A stretch of 64,000 bases of DNA from contig CAKRCD010000008.1 in the NCBI GenBank assembly GCA_934307065.1, forward strand, positions 1-64,000, given 5' to 3'. The position numbers and the translations under genes are program-made. The DNA comes from an uncultured Bariatricus sp. (GTDB lineage: Bacteria; Bacillota; Clostridia; Lachnospirales; Lachnospiraceae). Shown here piece after piece: positions 16,635 to 28,213 of the stretch. The notes beneath the pieces were generated by a model. It ran no database searches. It was not told the origin of the DNA and saw only the letters and a program-made list of their open reading frames with translations. Positions within the stretch are counted from its first letter, which is position 1. Each line of letters starts with the position of its first letter.

Positions 16635-17750
16635 TTATACAAAATAGATTCTGCCCGAAAATGCCACATGCGGCAATTCATAAAGGCTGCTGTCTTTAGG
16701 ACAGATTGGGCGATACAGTGGGTCAGCCACGATAATCTTTGCACCTTTCAGTGCTTCTTCCATGGCTTCTTCTCCTAATACTACCTCATCTTTTTCTCCA
16801 ACCAAAGCTTCACATTCCTTAAGTGGACACAAGACGCGAACTGAACGTCCATAGGTTTTTTCGATTCCTGCCGCCAGGGAACCCATGGTGACCGGTTCGC
16901 CAATCAGCGTAATCTCTGCTTCTTTTTGTATGCGATTCTGCAAATATACAACCTGCGGATCTGTCTGACCTGTGGCTGCTGCTTCCAGTGCCTTTGCAAT
17001 GTCTTCCGCCATCCATACATTTGGATTTCCAATCACATATGGTATACTGCAAATTTCCCAGAGTGCCTTTGCCACCCGCAGTCCGACTGCTGATACCACC
17101 AGATTGACATCTGCCTCTCCGGACTTTTGTAAGGTCTCCAGGTCATCGCCCATCGCCCATGTAGACACAACCGTCCATCCATATTTCTGTAAATTGTCTT
17201 TTAAAACTTCTACATTTTCCTGCGGGCCGAAATCCAGTGGTGTCACGCCTAACAGATTTACTCTGTGCACAAGGGTCCCACCTTTACTCTGCTTCTCTGC
17301 AGGGGCACTGACAAACCGCTTTGCAATTTCTTCCAGTGCAATTCCTGCTCCGTATACATAATCATTCATTCCGTTGGTCGGAACGGAAAACGCAGGAATT
17401 CCGGTTTCATCCTCAATTACCTTTGCAATTGCCGGGAAATCCGTACCATTCATAAATGGAATCGGTGAACCTGCCAGCGCAATGAATTTTGGATGAAGTT
17501 CACGGGCAGCATGTTCTATATCATTGATAAATTTTTGATCATTACCCATAATCGCATCGATTTCCGTCAGTCCGGAGATAAAGATGAAACTGTCCTGATC
17601 GTACCACCGGATCTCATCGTGGGTATTGTAGGTAGAGTTGCATCCGGATGGATCATGCATCACTGTCATTCCGCCAAGTTCATACAAGGCAGAACATACT
17701 CCGGACACGTCTGCCGTATAAATTGGTATAATTCGATATGATTGTCTCAT
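16635..17750 (-). CDS. Nitrogenase component 1-like protein, small type, cassette 2
   Basis: 371 aa from the ATG at 17750, whose ATGA overlaps the stop of the upstream gene. The N-terminus has SGVCSALYELGG and HDPSGCNSTYNTHDEIRWY, which resemble the two P-cluster-type cysteine regions of NifD-like proteins. The rest is the three-domain Rossmann-like fold, with INLLGV-like LLGVTPLDFG, YVIGNP and a conserved end VAFSGRIYF. It is clearly paralogous to the 348-aa protein of cassette 1 (SGLxxxDAIxGxD, TDF/TDYxA). No obvious equivalent of the FeMo-cofactor ligands could be assigned, so true nitrogenase activity is not supported. Last gene of the operon. Substrate unknown. Confidence 0.8.
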   Translation of the reverse strand: MRQSYRIIPIYTADVSGVCSALYELGGMTVMHDPSGCNSTYNTHDEIRWYDQDSFIFISGLTEIDAIMGNDQKFINDIEHAARELHPKFIALAGSPIPFMNGTDFPAIAKVIEDETGIPAFSVPTNGMNDYVYGAGIALEEIAKRFVSAPAEKQSKGGTLVHRVNLLGVTPLDFGPQENVEVLKDNLQKYGWTVVSTWAMGDDLETLQKSGEADVNLVVSAVGLRVAKALWEICSIPYVIGNPNVWMAEDIAKALEAAATGQTDPQVVYLQNRIQKEAEITLIGEPVTMGSLAAGIEKTYGRSVRVLCPLKECEALVGEKDEVVLGEEAMEEALKGAKIIVADPLYRPICPKDSSLYELPHVAFSGRIYFV

Positions 17751-19084
17751 AGGCAGCACTCGCACCCCCATCCCTTTTGTATTACCAGTTTTTCCGTATC
17801 TTTTTCAACACGATAAGCATCCATCATCAGCTCTGCTGTTCTTCGGATACCGTCAAATCCATGCAAGCCTTCCCCCTGCACCAGATTGACAAAGTGCCGG
17901 CTGCGGCTGAAGTACGCTGCTTTCTGTCCGATAGCAAGGACTTCCTCTTTCCCACCTCTTGGCAGTACACGCATCTTTACCTGAATCGTTGCAATCAGCT
18001 CCAATTCCGGTGCATGCTCCTGCAGCCAGTAAAAGTCTGCTTCTTCTTCCGGACTGATGGCATCCAGATAAACCCCTTTTACCCGGAACCCATGCATCAG
18101 AAGCAGTTTTGCAAGACCAAGTGGTCTTGGATGATACAGATAATCCAAAGTGATCGGCATATCTTTAATCAGCTCTTTTGCTTTTCCAAGGGATTCCTCA
18201 CATGCCTCACGCTCCCGTTTCAGTTCGTCTTCCGTAAGTTCCGGTAAACCAAGCGCATCGGTCAACTGTTTTAACTGCTGCTCAATCTCCTCATAATCAA
18301 AGCCGCCCGGCAGATACAGATGTTCCCGGCCCAGACGCCTTGCCTGCGCCTCCATACCGTATTTTCCAGCCGGATAACAATCGATAAACAAACGGCCTTT
18401 GCTCATATCCAGCAGTTCCTGCCAGGTCTGACAGGACGGCAGTTCCCGCACGGTATAATCATATTTCTTTAACAGACGCTTAATATCACTGCTCTCATCC
18501 AGAACAAAATCACTGCCAAATACAGACACGGTTTTCTCATCCGGTTCACACACCGGAAGCGGATCATACATGGCTTTTCTCAGCTTCTGATCCGGTGTTA
18601 ATCCATGTTTCTGCATAATCGGGTCCATATAACAGCGGATAAAACAGATATCCGGGAAGCGTCGTTCCAATTCCCCATAAATATAATCCAGATTGCTTCC
18701 TACAAAATGATGCAGACAAACGGTAAACAACAGAACTGCTTTTGGATGATCCTCACGTTTATTCAGTACATCCGTCACACCTTCAATCGTAATTTCTTCC
18801 AGGTTACTGTTTAAAATGTCCTGCTGTTCCAGAATCACAAAGGAAAAACGGTCTGCTGCATTCATTTCTGCCGCTGTCAGCACAACACCTCGCATACAGT
18901 TATCTGCACAGACATAGATCTGAATTGCTTCCGGCACCAGCATACCCATATGCACAATATTCCAGTTCCCGTGCACCGGTGAATTAAATTCCAGTTCCGA
19001 AGCAAATGGTGCCGGAAAGGAAGCATCCTTGATTTTTATTACTGCGTCTTTTGAATCAACTGTTTTACCTACACGACGTAACAT
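17747..19084 (-). CDS. Nitrogenase component 1-like protein, large type, cassette 2
   Basis: 445 aa. The N-terminal half has LEFNSPVHGNWNIVHMGML and IYVCADNCMRGVVL; then FTVCLHHFVGSNLDYIYG matches the nitrogenase component 1 fold. The protein ends with an unusual cysteine-rich tail, WGCECCL, absent from its cassette 1 paralogue. The ATG at 19084 overlaps the stop of the NifH-like gene (TAATG), and its own stop overlaps the next start (ATGA). Shared gene order and motifs with the 426-aa protein (FNSP, DRFxF/DRFYY, CxxxLLG/FVG) show they arose by cassette duplication. Probably forms a heteromer with the 371-aa partner; that is inference. Confidence 0.78.
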   Translation of the reverse strand: MLRRVGKTVDSKDAVIKIKDASFPAPFASELEFNSPVHGNWNIVHMGMLVPEAIQIYVCADNCMRGVVLTAAEMNAADRFSFVILEQQDILNSNLEEITIEGVTDVLNKREDHPKAVLLFTVCLHHFVGSNLDYIYGELERRFPDICFIRCYMDPIMQKHGLTPDQKLRKAMYDPLPVCEPDEKTVSVFGSDFVLDESSDIKRLLKKYDYTVRELPSCQTWQELLDMSKGRLFIDCYPAGKYGMEAQARRLGREHLYLPGGFDYEEIEQQLKQLTDALGLPELTEDELKREREACEESLGKAKELIKDMPITLDYLYHPRPLGLAKLLLMHGFRVKGVYLDAISPEEEADFYWLQEHAPELELIATIQVKMRVLPRGGKEEVLAIGQKAAYFSRSRHFVNLVQGEGLHGFDGIRRTAELMMDAYRVEKDTEKLVIQKGWGCECCL

Positions 19085-19893
19085 TATTCTTCCTCCTGTA
19101 CATCTTCAGCCATTACAGCATCACATTTCCCTTCCGGTGTTCCGCCGCATATGCGATACATCTGTCTTGCAAGTGTGCGGTATTCCTCTGCCATGTCACT
19201 GTCCGGATAACATTCAATCAATGTTTTTTTCTGTTCCTCTGCCAGTATCACCTGTTCACTATGGGATAATGTTCCGATGACATCCGTATGGAAATCTTCT
19301 GCCAGTTCCGCCACTTTTTCTTCTTCCCGTGGAACATCTTTGTGATTTAAAATGAATCCACCCATTCCGGCATATCCCCGGTTTTTGAAATTATCCACTG
19401 CCATGGCAATATTTGCTGCTGCATGAATCGCCATATTTTCTCCGGAAGTAATGATAAATACCTTGTCGGCATAACCATTTCTCATCGGCATAGAAAATCC
19501 ACCGCAGACTACATCTCCAAGTACATCATACAAAACTACATCCGGCTTATATATTTCATAGGCACCCATTTCTTTCAGCTTTTCCAGTGCCGTGATAATT
19601 CCACGTCCGGCACATCCAAGCCCCGGTGTCGGTCCTCCGGCTTCCACACAGATGACGTTGTTATAGCCAATGCGTATCATATCCGTAAGCTGCATTGCCT
19701 GTTTTTTCTTATTATATAAATCCAAAACTGCCGGGACTTCTTCTCCATGACGAAGCAACATAGTCGAATCCGCTTTCGGATCACAGCCAATCTGCATAAC
19801 CGTAAGCCCCATCTCAGCCAATGCTGCCGACACATTCGAAACGGTAGTGGATTTTCCGATTCCACCTTTTCCATATACTGCTATTCTAATCAA
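19084..19893 (-). CDS. NifH-like iron protein / P-loop ATPase, cassette 2
   Basis: 269 aa from a TTG at 19893 with GAGGAGG upstream. The frame is open further upstream, but homology begins at IRIAVYGKGGIGKSTTVSN. The P-loop GKGGIGKS, QIGCDPKADST (Switch-type region), PGLGCAGRGI and DVLGDVVCGGF are all present. The last two carry the pair of cysteines that ligate the shared [4Fe-4S] cluster of NifH, BchL and CfbC homodimers. ATP-driven electron donor to the two component 1-like proteins downstream is the natural inference. Not ParA/MinD, because of the cluster cysteines. The gene overlaps the TM1266-like gene by 8 bp. Confidence 0.9.
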   Translation of the reverse strand: MIRIAVYGKGGIGKSTTVSNVSAALAEMGLTVMQIGCDPKADSTMLLRHGEEVPAVLDLYNKKKQAMQLTDMIRIGYNNVICVEAGGPTPGLGCAGRGIITALEKLKEMGAYEIYKPDVVLYDVLGDVVCGGFSMPMRNGYADKVFIITSGENMAIHAAANIAMAVDNFKNRGYAGMGGFILNHKDVPREEEKVAELAEDFHTDVIGTLSHSEQVILAEEQKKTLIECYPDSDMAEEYRTLARQMYRICGGTPEGKCDAVMAEDVQEEE

Positions 19894-27982: not shown

Positions 27983-28020
27983 AAAAAAACCATCTTTCCG
28001 GCAATACGTCAGAAAAATGG
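27983..28020 (-). terminator. Leader terminator (putative attenuator) upstream of the nitrogenase-like operon
   Basis: On the minus strand CCATTTTTCTGACG pairs with GCCGGAAAGATGG (one mismatch, two G-U pairs) and is followed by seven T's. It lies between the promoter and the first gene, 26-63 bp before its ATG, so it can only act by premature termination. The ligand or anti-terminator is not recognised. Confidence 0.65.
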
Positions 28021-28183
28021 TTCTGTAAATCCTTGTTCCACAACTATTCTTGCTCGGTTCATTCTTCCTTGCCGTCAGAGTTTTCTTATTCATTTTTAAT
28101 TACTCTAGTCAACTACTGTATCTTCTTCACCAAATGCTTTGCAGATGTATGAATCAGAAAAAGTAAGTCATATTATTTGTTTT

Positions 28184-28213
28184 ATTTTACCAGTTATTGT
28201 ATATGTTAGTCAA
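28184..28213 (-). promoter_or_regulatory. Promoter of the nitrogenase-like / hyp operon
   Basis: On the minus strand TTGACT (28213-28208) and TAAAAT (28189-28184) are 18 bp apart. Transcription would start near 28177, giving a leader of about 220 nt before the ATG at 27957. Confidence 0.6.

Follow-up and report, generated by a model that had tools for sequence, protein, structure and literature searches.

A conserved operon of hyp and nitrogenase-like genes that probably takes the place of HydG in [FeFe]-hydrogenase maturation

Introduction

How is the CO- and cyanide-ligated iron of an [FeFe] hydrogenase made in genomes that have HydE and HydF and in which HydG is not detected? The question is raised by an operon in a 64,000-nucleotide stretch of DNA from an uncultured Bariatricus sp. 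(contig CAKRCD010000008.1, positions 1 to 64,000), the whole of which is referred to here as the window. Eleven genes follow one another on its minus strand, from 27957 to 16635, in the order H1-D1-K1-hypF-hypC-hypD-hypE-TM1266-H2-D2-K2, many of their frames overlapping or near-touching, where H is a NifH-like protein and D and K are a large and a small subunit resembling those of nitrogenase component 1. The operon is genuine, it is conserved, and its make-up is unusual. From comparisons of sequences across genomes we consider it very probable that it encodes a branch of [FeFe]-hydrogenase maturation that replaces HydG.

According to a 2018 review, in the part drawn on here, HydE, HydG and HydF are found in all microorganisms having an [FeFe] hydrogenase, with HydG converting tyrosine to Fe(CO)2(CN)Cys (PMC6212873). 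Di Leonardo et al. (2022; PMC9431212) reported HydE and HydF in 8/8 Clostridium acetogens and HydG in only 3/8, and in the same eight organisms HypCDEF, which make and insert Fe(CN)2CO, in 8/8 and HypAB in only 3/8. In the parts of that paper used here, the absence of HydG was left without a straightforward explanation, atypical HydG candidates were proposed among other ideas and were named in every studied acetogen except C. autoethanogenum, and the word nitrogenase appears once, in a reference title. Within the parts of the open-licence PMC literature that were searched, including PMC11736057, PMC10418091, PMC8003979 and PMC9431491, we found no paper linking HydG absence, Hyp and nitrogenase-like genes, and a HydG-free route by way of Hyp and nitrogenase-like proteins is apparently undescribed so far.

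Results

HydG and the Operon Exclude Each Other in Two Order-Level Samples

Two sets of genomes were searched for HydG, HydF and D1. Sample 1 comprised 196 genomes from the order of G004/Eubacterium ramulus, which we take to be Lachnospirales, and sample 2 comprised 197 genomes from the coriobacterial order of G035; the two groups presumably represent two phyla. HydG was sought at E<=1e-80, with the Thermotoga maritima positive control scoring above the HydG cut-off, and HydF in sample 1 at E<=1e-60; G004, G013, G025 and G035, four genomes whose operon was known beforehand, were also searched for HydG at 0.001. Weaker D1 matches were not counted, namely six genomes of 207-257 bits in sample 1, which correspond to the separate cassette family described below, and four of 160-197 bits in sample 2.

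HydG and the operon are mutually exclusive in both samples. HydF is present in all 16 genomes with D1 (8 + 8), and HydG at E<=1e-80 in 0/16. Sample 1 contains HydG in 85 genomes, all of which have HydF, HydF in 101 (100 above the cut-off) and D1 in 8. A manual check for missed HydG covered the eight sample 1 genomes that have hydF and neither HydG nor D1, and one HydG-like gene, in locus L160 of G132, lies between hydE and hydF, is 48% identical over 511 columns and had been missed at E<=1e-80. With G132 included, HydG occurs among the hydF genomes of sample 1 in 0/8 with D1 vs 86/93 without it (Fisher p=3.2e-8). The corresponding figures for sample 2, in which HydG was found in 20 genomes, HydF in 30 and D1 in 8, are 0/8 vs 20/22 (Fisher p=7.7e-6). 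When the four known operon genomes (G004 and G013; G035 and G025) are excluded, p=1.5e-6 in sample 1 and 7.4e-5 in sample 2. Possession of D1 also goes with possession of HydF, which is present in 8/8 D1 genomes vs 93/188 others in sample 1 (p=0.007) and in 8/8 vs 22/189 in sample 2 (p=1.2e-7).

Seven genomes of sample 1 have hydF and neither HydG nor D1, and the surroundings of their hydF showed no D, K or hyp gene. A separate observation concerns two stretches (L157 and L159, from G058 and G103) with HydF-like genes that are 46% identical to the HydF query; these stretches gave no HydE, HydG or hyp match, and the two genomes gave no HydG match at E<=1e-80.

Genomes with the Operon Have [FeFe] Hydrogenases, HydE and HydF

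Scanning genomes with a D1 alignment gave 495 candidate stretches, of which 416 were confirmed as relatives; the best 80 of the 416 were analysed as loci, with taxon groups taken from the record titles. Fifty of these 80, hand-picked and mostly on longer contigs, provided the operon genomes considered here. The [FeFe]-hydrogenase domain PF02906 is present in 50/50, as is D2, with one match each at E<=1e-60; HydE exceeds its cut-off in 49/50 and HydF in 48/50, and HydG does so in 2/50. Among the 12 best-scoring HydA loci, which come from 12 genomes, three motifs that we take to be the H-cluster motifs are intact in 12/12. Four genomes that are close relatives of that of the window (G001-G004) have HydE, HydF and HydA, a HydG score under the cut-off and no [NiFe] match. 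Four of the species studied in PMC9431212 carry the operon (C. ljungdahlii L047, C. ragsdalei L041, C. carboxidivorans L048 and C. drakei L058), and for these four our HydG search agrees with that paper, HydG being present in C. drakei, with none above the cut-off in the other three.

The Operon Is Conserved and in Part of the Genomes Linked to hydE and hydF

The order H1-D1-K1-hypF-C-D-E-(TM1266)-(H2)-D2-K2 recurs among the best 80 of 416 loci in Lachnospiraceae, Oscillospiraceae, Clostridium and Coriobacteriaceae/Atopobiaceae, with the second cassette standing first in L056, L057 and L075. Of the 80 D1 loci, all from other genomes, 73 have a hypF gene. Six of the seven others break off within ~510 bases of the D1 match; in L028 a hydE and a hydF are inserted and the stretch stops in K1. 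Where K1 and hypF both occur they are next to each other in nearly every locus, and the grouping of Hyp with H-D-K genes is kept in Clostridia as well as in Coriobacteria. The first-pass annotation, made from the letters of the window, had described eleven same-strand genes in this order, which are present and whose families were matched by hidden Markov model (HMM) searches; it had also allowed that the genes might lie together by chance, and the likeness of the neighbourhoods across genomes, with hypF at 73/80 loci, shows that the grouping is not chance.

D1 and K1 form a single open frame in 11 loci (L037, L044, L045, L046, L049, L051, L055, L061, L067, L071 and L072), 9 of which belong to records with Coriobacteriaceae, Atopobiaceae or actinobacterium in the title. 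Only one H gene is seen in 22 of the loci that bear D2, or in 19 once L038, where D2 is partial, and L039 and L077, where it lies at the edge of the locus, are set aside; the record titles of 14 of these 19 give Coriobacteria, Atopobiaceae or actinobacterium. NifH serves both NifDK and NifEN, and since a single H gene stands with both pairs in 19 loci, one Fe protein can probably serve both component-1-like pairs here too. A separate family of H-D-K cassettes was seen in six loci (L131-L136, from G206, G211, G234, G076, G117 and G216); its D proteins are ~26-30% identical to D1 or D2, and no hyp genes occur in the ~4 kb seen.

Of the additional genes within or next to the operon, HydF and HydE recur most often, and the four HydE and four HydF proteins that were tested score far above the NCBIfam cut-offs. 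By tblastn, HydE, HydF or AspA is found in 20/80 loci (HydE 13, HydF 17, AspA 3) and HydG in 0/80. Four further genomes, beyond the 80 loci, contain arrays in which the two sets of genes are joined. L150 and L152 read TM1266-hydF-hydE-H2-D2-K2-H1-D1-K1-hypFCDE on one strand, L151 has the array from hydF to hypFCDE with TM1266 not in view, and in the fourth genome the same hydF-to-hypFCDE array is split across two contigs (L153/L154). D2 lies <=20 kb from hydE or hydF in 17/50 operon genomes. The TM1266 family is named for [FeFe]-hydrogenase systems; its copy in the window stands directly before H2, and in the C. drakei genome (L085) TM1266 stands immediately before hydG, the place that it holds before H2 in the window. 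An aspartate ammonia-lyase gene lies beside the HydE and HydF genes of L039, and aspA near hydF is a described association, with a proposed role in ammonia supply for the dithiomethylamine ligand (PMC11736057, in the part drawn on).

The Nitrogenase-Like Proteins Fall below Nitrogenase Cut-Offs and the Hyp Proteins Keep Key Residues

The genes of the operon, with boundaries refined by start codon, are listed in Table 1; K1 most likely starts at ATG 25914 and H2 at TTG 19893. An HMM search of the window proteins places HypC, HypD and HypE above their NCBIfam cut-offs, and each of the five Pfam domains of the HypF architecture is above its cut-off, so all four of the HypC, D, E and F proteins of the HypABCDEF set are found in the window. 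Among them, C2 of HypC is invariant and H45 is conserved across full-length relatives, the nine motif-position cysteines of HypD are invariant in the window and 65 relatives, and the C-terminal cysteine of HypE is invariant across full-length relatives.

Table 1. Genes of the operon in transcription order, with window coordinates
Gene	Coordinates	Strand	Product and features
H1	27196..27957	-	NifH-like ATP-dependent reductase; ATG start; 253 aa
D1	25919..27199	-	large nitrogenase-component-1-like subunit; 426 aa; PF00148
K1	24868..25914	-	small component-1-like subunit; 348 aa; PF00148; conserved GGCTGNICGFDEPRW stretch
hypF	22502..24832	-	carbamoyltransferase of cyanide-ligand synthesis; 776 aa; five Pfam domains
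hypC	22289..22498	-	iron-unit chaperone; NCBIfam match above cut-off
hypD	21234..22289	-	Fe(CN)2CO assembly scaffold; 379 bits vs cut-off 192.8
hypE	20181..21188	-	HypF's cyanide-forming partner; 430.7 bits vs cut-off 251.6
TM1266	19886..20164	-	TM1266-family small protein; TIGR03959 and PF21699
H2	19084..19893	-	second NifH-like reductase; PF00142; TTG start preceded by GAGGAGGA motif
D2	17747..19084	-	second large component-1-like subunit; 445 aa; PF00148
K2	16635..17750	-	second small component-1-like subunit; PF00148

The H, D and K proteins reach none of the NCBIfam equivalog cut-offs for NifH, NifD and NifE. H1 and H2 match the nifH model at 316 bits (curated cut-off 394), D1 matches nifE at 68.9 bits (cut-off 505), and K1, K2 and D2 score lower still. 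Among the matches listed, the CfbC/CfbD and DPOR cut-offs are likewise not reached, and membership in nitrogen fixation, CfbCD or DPOR systems is rejected on these scores. The best sequence match among solved structures is NifE for D1, K1 and K2. Methylthio-alkane reductase chains match K2 by sequence (E 2e-6), more weakly than NifE, and match D2 by structure, not better than the Nif/Anf/Vnf chains; no curated Mar model is among the profile matches of the window proteins. AlphaFold models of D1 and D2 (predicted local distance difference test, pLDDT, 87.3 and 88.5) align with MoFe, VFe and FeFe proteins and NifEN at probability 1.00 and template-modelling (TM) scores of ~0.6-0.7, and a component-1 fold is predicted for both. 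The two H-D-K cassettes look like old paralogues because D1 and D2 are 21%, K1 and K2 28% and H1 and H2 ~51-53% identical.

The P-loop, C95 and C131 of H1, the two cysteines being, we assume, at the cluster-ligand positions of NifH, are invariant in the window and 75 relatives, and so are C70, C71, C128, C131 and C158 of D1 in the window and 80 relatives. C63 and C123 of D2 are invariant, and both cysteines of the GGCTGNIC motif of K1 are conserved across full-length relatives. When D1 is aligned with NifE, the second cysteine of its PGCC falls on that of NifE IACAG and the cysteine of its ITCVDALLGTD on that of NifE NTCVPALIGDD; K1 and K2 do not have the second of these two cysteines.

Surroundings of the Operon

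The noted region ends at 28213, the edge of a promoter-like match (28213-28184). No promoter is claimed because such matches are not commoner in the region than chance (21 seen, 23.5 expected). Terminator-like matches, on both strands, are above chance (17 seen, 9.3 expected, standard deviation 3.4), and a search of the window at Rfam gathering thresholds revealed no known riboswitch or other RNA. A short-chain dehydrogenase-like gene (15744-16544) follows K2 on the same strand after ~90 bases and may be co-transcribed with the operon; in the 80 loci, most of which hold little DNA past K2, weak matches to it (27% identity) occur in L063 only. Just upstream of the operon, 28506-34809 holds, as judged by eye, type I restriction-modification-like genes and an associated small protein.

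Discussion

A Possible Route from Hyp to the H-Cluster

The substitution of HydG is supported by genomics, and every chemical step that follows is one that we infer. Where HydG is missing, HypFCDE together with D1K1 and D2K2 would supply HydE and HydF with CO/CN-ligated iron. HypF and HypE convert carbamoyl phosphate to cyanide, and HypC-HypD assemble Fe(CN)2(CO). In the route that we propose, the cyanide made by HypF/HypE from carbamoyl phosphate would be used by HypC-HypD to build such an Fe(CN)2(CO) unit, which H1-D1K1 and H2-D2K2 would convert by means of ATP-driven low-potential electrons into a mono-iron CO/CN synthon of the HydG type. HydE and HydF, whose genes lie next to the operon or at other places, would then build the [2Fe] subcluster and deliver it to HydA, and the route would probably end with the [2Fe] part of the H-cluster of [FeFe] hydrogenases. 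Each iron leaves Hyp with two CN and one CO, while the two irons of the H-cluster together carry two CN and three CO. The difference has to be made up by reductive ligand exchange or by additional CO, a task that the nitrogenase-like complexes could plausibly perform. The most likely form of the conversion would be reduction with the swap of one cyanide for CO, a rather doubtful assignment of the chemistry that is offered tentatively, and the replacement CO could possibly be made from CO2. A step order of Hyp, D1K1, D2K2 and HydE, taken from gene order, was dropped because the position of hydE and hydF differs between genomes and includes places next to H1 as well as between D1 and K1.

Evidence Against and Alternative Explanations

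Several observations weigh against the assignment of the operon to the place of HydG. The C. drakei and C. thailandense genomes (L085 and L086) carry the operon and a HydG above the cut-off. Nine hydF genomes (seven in sample 1, two in sample 2) have neither HydG nor D1, so HydG absence is not always tied to the operon. The absence of HydG in 12/16 D1 genomes depends on E<=1e-80, the threshold that missed the HydG of G132; the Fisher tests ignore kinship, with the pattern repeating in two groups; the genomes searched are of unreported completeness; and the HydG status of the window genome itself is taken from its close relatives (L001-L004). In 33/50 genomes neither hydE nor hydF lies on the contig of D2 at a distance of 20 kb or less, and the position of hydE/hydF varies, from beside H1 in several Coriobacteria loci to between D1 and K1 (L028, L029 and L038) and, elsewhere, after K2 or before H2. 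The known Hyp product, Fe(CN)2CO, also has a CN:CO ratio unlike that of the Fe(CO)2CN of HydG.

Other explanations have to account for the same data. The two full H-D-K sets are enzyme-like, with no known substrate or product, and the predicted fold of D1 and D2 is that of component 1, which might suggest that these complexes constitute a new metalloenzyme and that it has an Fe-CN-CO cofactor of its own, hydE and hydF being recruited for that cofactor or co-occurring by lifestyle. We regard this as improbable, as it leaves the [FeFe] hydrogenases of 50/50 genomes without a detectable HydG in 48/50 and does not predict the mutual exclusion with HydG in two orders. It is very unlikely, too, that a divergent radical S-adenosylmethionine (SAM) enzyme, ThiH-like or an atypical HydG, does the job of HydG and that the operon is unrelated. 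The atypical candidates in all but one of the acetogens of PMC9431212, in the part cited, agree with that idea, as do the sub-cut-off matches to the HydG model (~1e-49 to 1e-67) in 27/50 operon genomes. We read these matches as ThiH-like because they end near position 390 of 470 and are, in the six loci examined, 32-33% identical to C. drakei HydG, and in 21/50 genomes, including C. ljungdahlii (G032) and C. ragsdalei (G028), the HydG model has no match stronger than 1e-40. Moreover, an unrelated operon leaves unexplained both the hydE and hydF genes inside or beside it and the exclusion between D1 and HydG.

That the operon serves ordinary [NiFe]-hydrogenase maturation next to unrelated nitrogenase-like genes is scarcely credible. 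HypFCDE is complete, and the [NiFe] large subunit is matched in 8/50 operon genomes, six of them Clostridium with matches spread over most of the profile; yet two of the eight matches cover only ~profile positions 1-70, 42/50 genomes have no match, on which [NiFe] maturation as the main role is rejected, and the association of the Hyp with the H-D-K genes is kept in both Clostridia and Coriobacteria. The first-pass annotation had named a [NiFe] hydrogenase and hypAB elsewhere, with unrelated neighbourhoods in other genomes, as the sign of a chance association; the 42/50 without a [NiFe] match and the likeness of the neighbourhoods argue against chance. Its remark that a hydrogenase is missing holds for the genes listed in the window and does not extend to the genomes of the relatives, which have [FeFe] hydrogenases in 50/50. 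Of its two suggestions for a Hyp-made Fe-CN-CO unit and nitrogenase-like complexes, a cofactor-assembly system fits, and an undescribed metalloenzyme is not needed because the route probably leads to the [2Fe] part of the H-cluster, all 50 operon genomes having [FeFe] hydrogenases.

Significance and Comparison with Known Systems

HydG is regarded as one of the minimal components that any [FeFe] hydrogenase needs. A second route to the H-cluster, as we propose for the operon, would explain how hydrogenases mature in many of the hydrogen producers of the gut and in industrial acetogens. It would also assign a role to an orphan branch within the nitrogenase superfamily and explain why HypCDEF occur where a [NiFe] hydrogenase is absent, and it could offer another way to an active [FeFe] hydrogenase.

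The operon shares features with several known systems. Methylthio-alkane reductase, CfbCD and DPOR have the same H-D-K architecture and fold, and Mar chains match K2 and D2, whereas the operon proteins are below the CfbC/CfbD and DPOR cut-offs; we know of no Hyp partnership for any of the three. NifEN with NifH is similar in having component-1-like pairs served by Fe proteins, of which the operon has two pairs, with one H gene for both in 19 loci, and NifE is the best match for D1, K1 and K2; the operon proteins differ in falling below the Nif equivalog cut-offs and in their apparent cofactor. From the HypABCDEF system of [NiFe] maturation the operon has HypC, D, E and F with their key residues, but it has fixed H-D-K partners, and the [NiFe] large subunit is unmatched in 42/50 of its genomes. 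A further parallel is HydE/HydF/HydG maturation, which has the same apparent target and whose HydE and HydF, together with TM1266 and, in 3 loci, AspA, are neighbours of the operon. It differs in that HydG is not detected in 48/50 operon genomes and in the source of CO and CN, which for HydG is the cleavage of tyrosine and for the operon would be Hyp together with the nitrogenase-like proteins.

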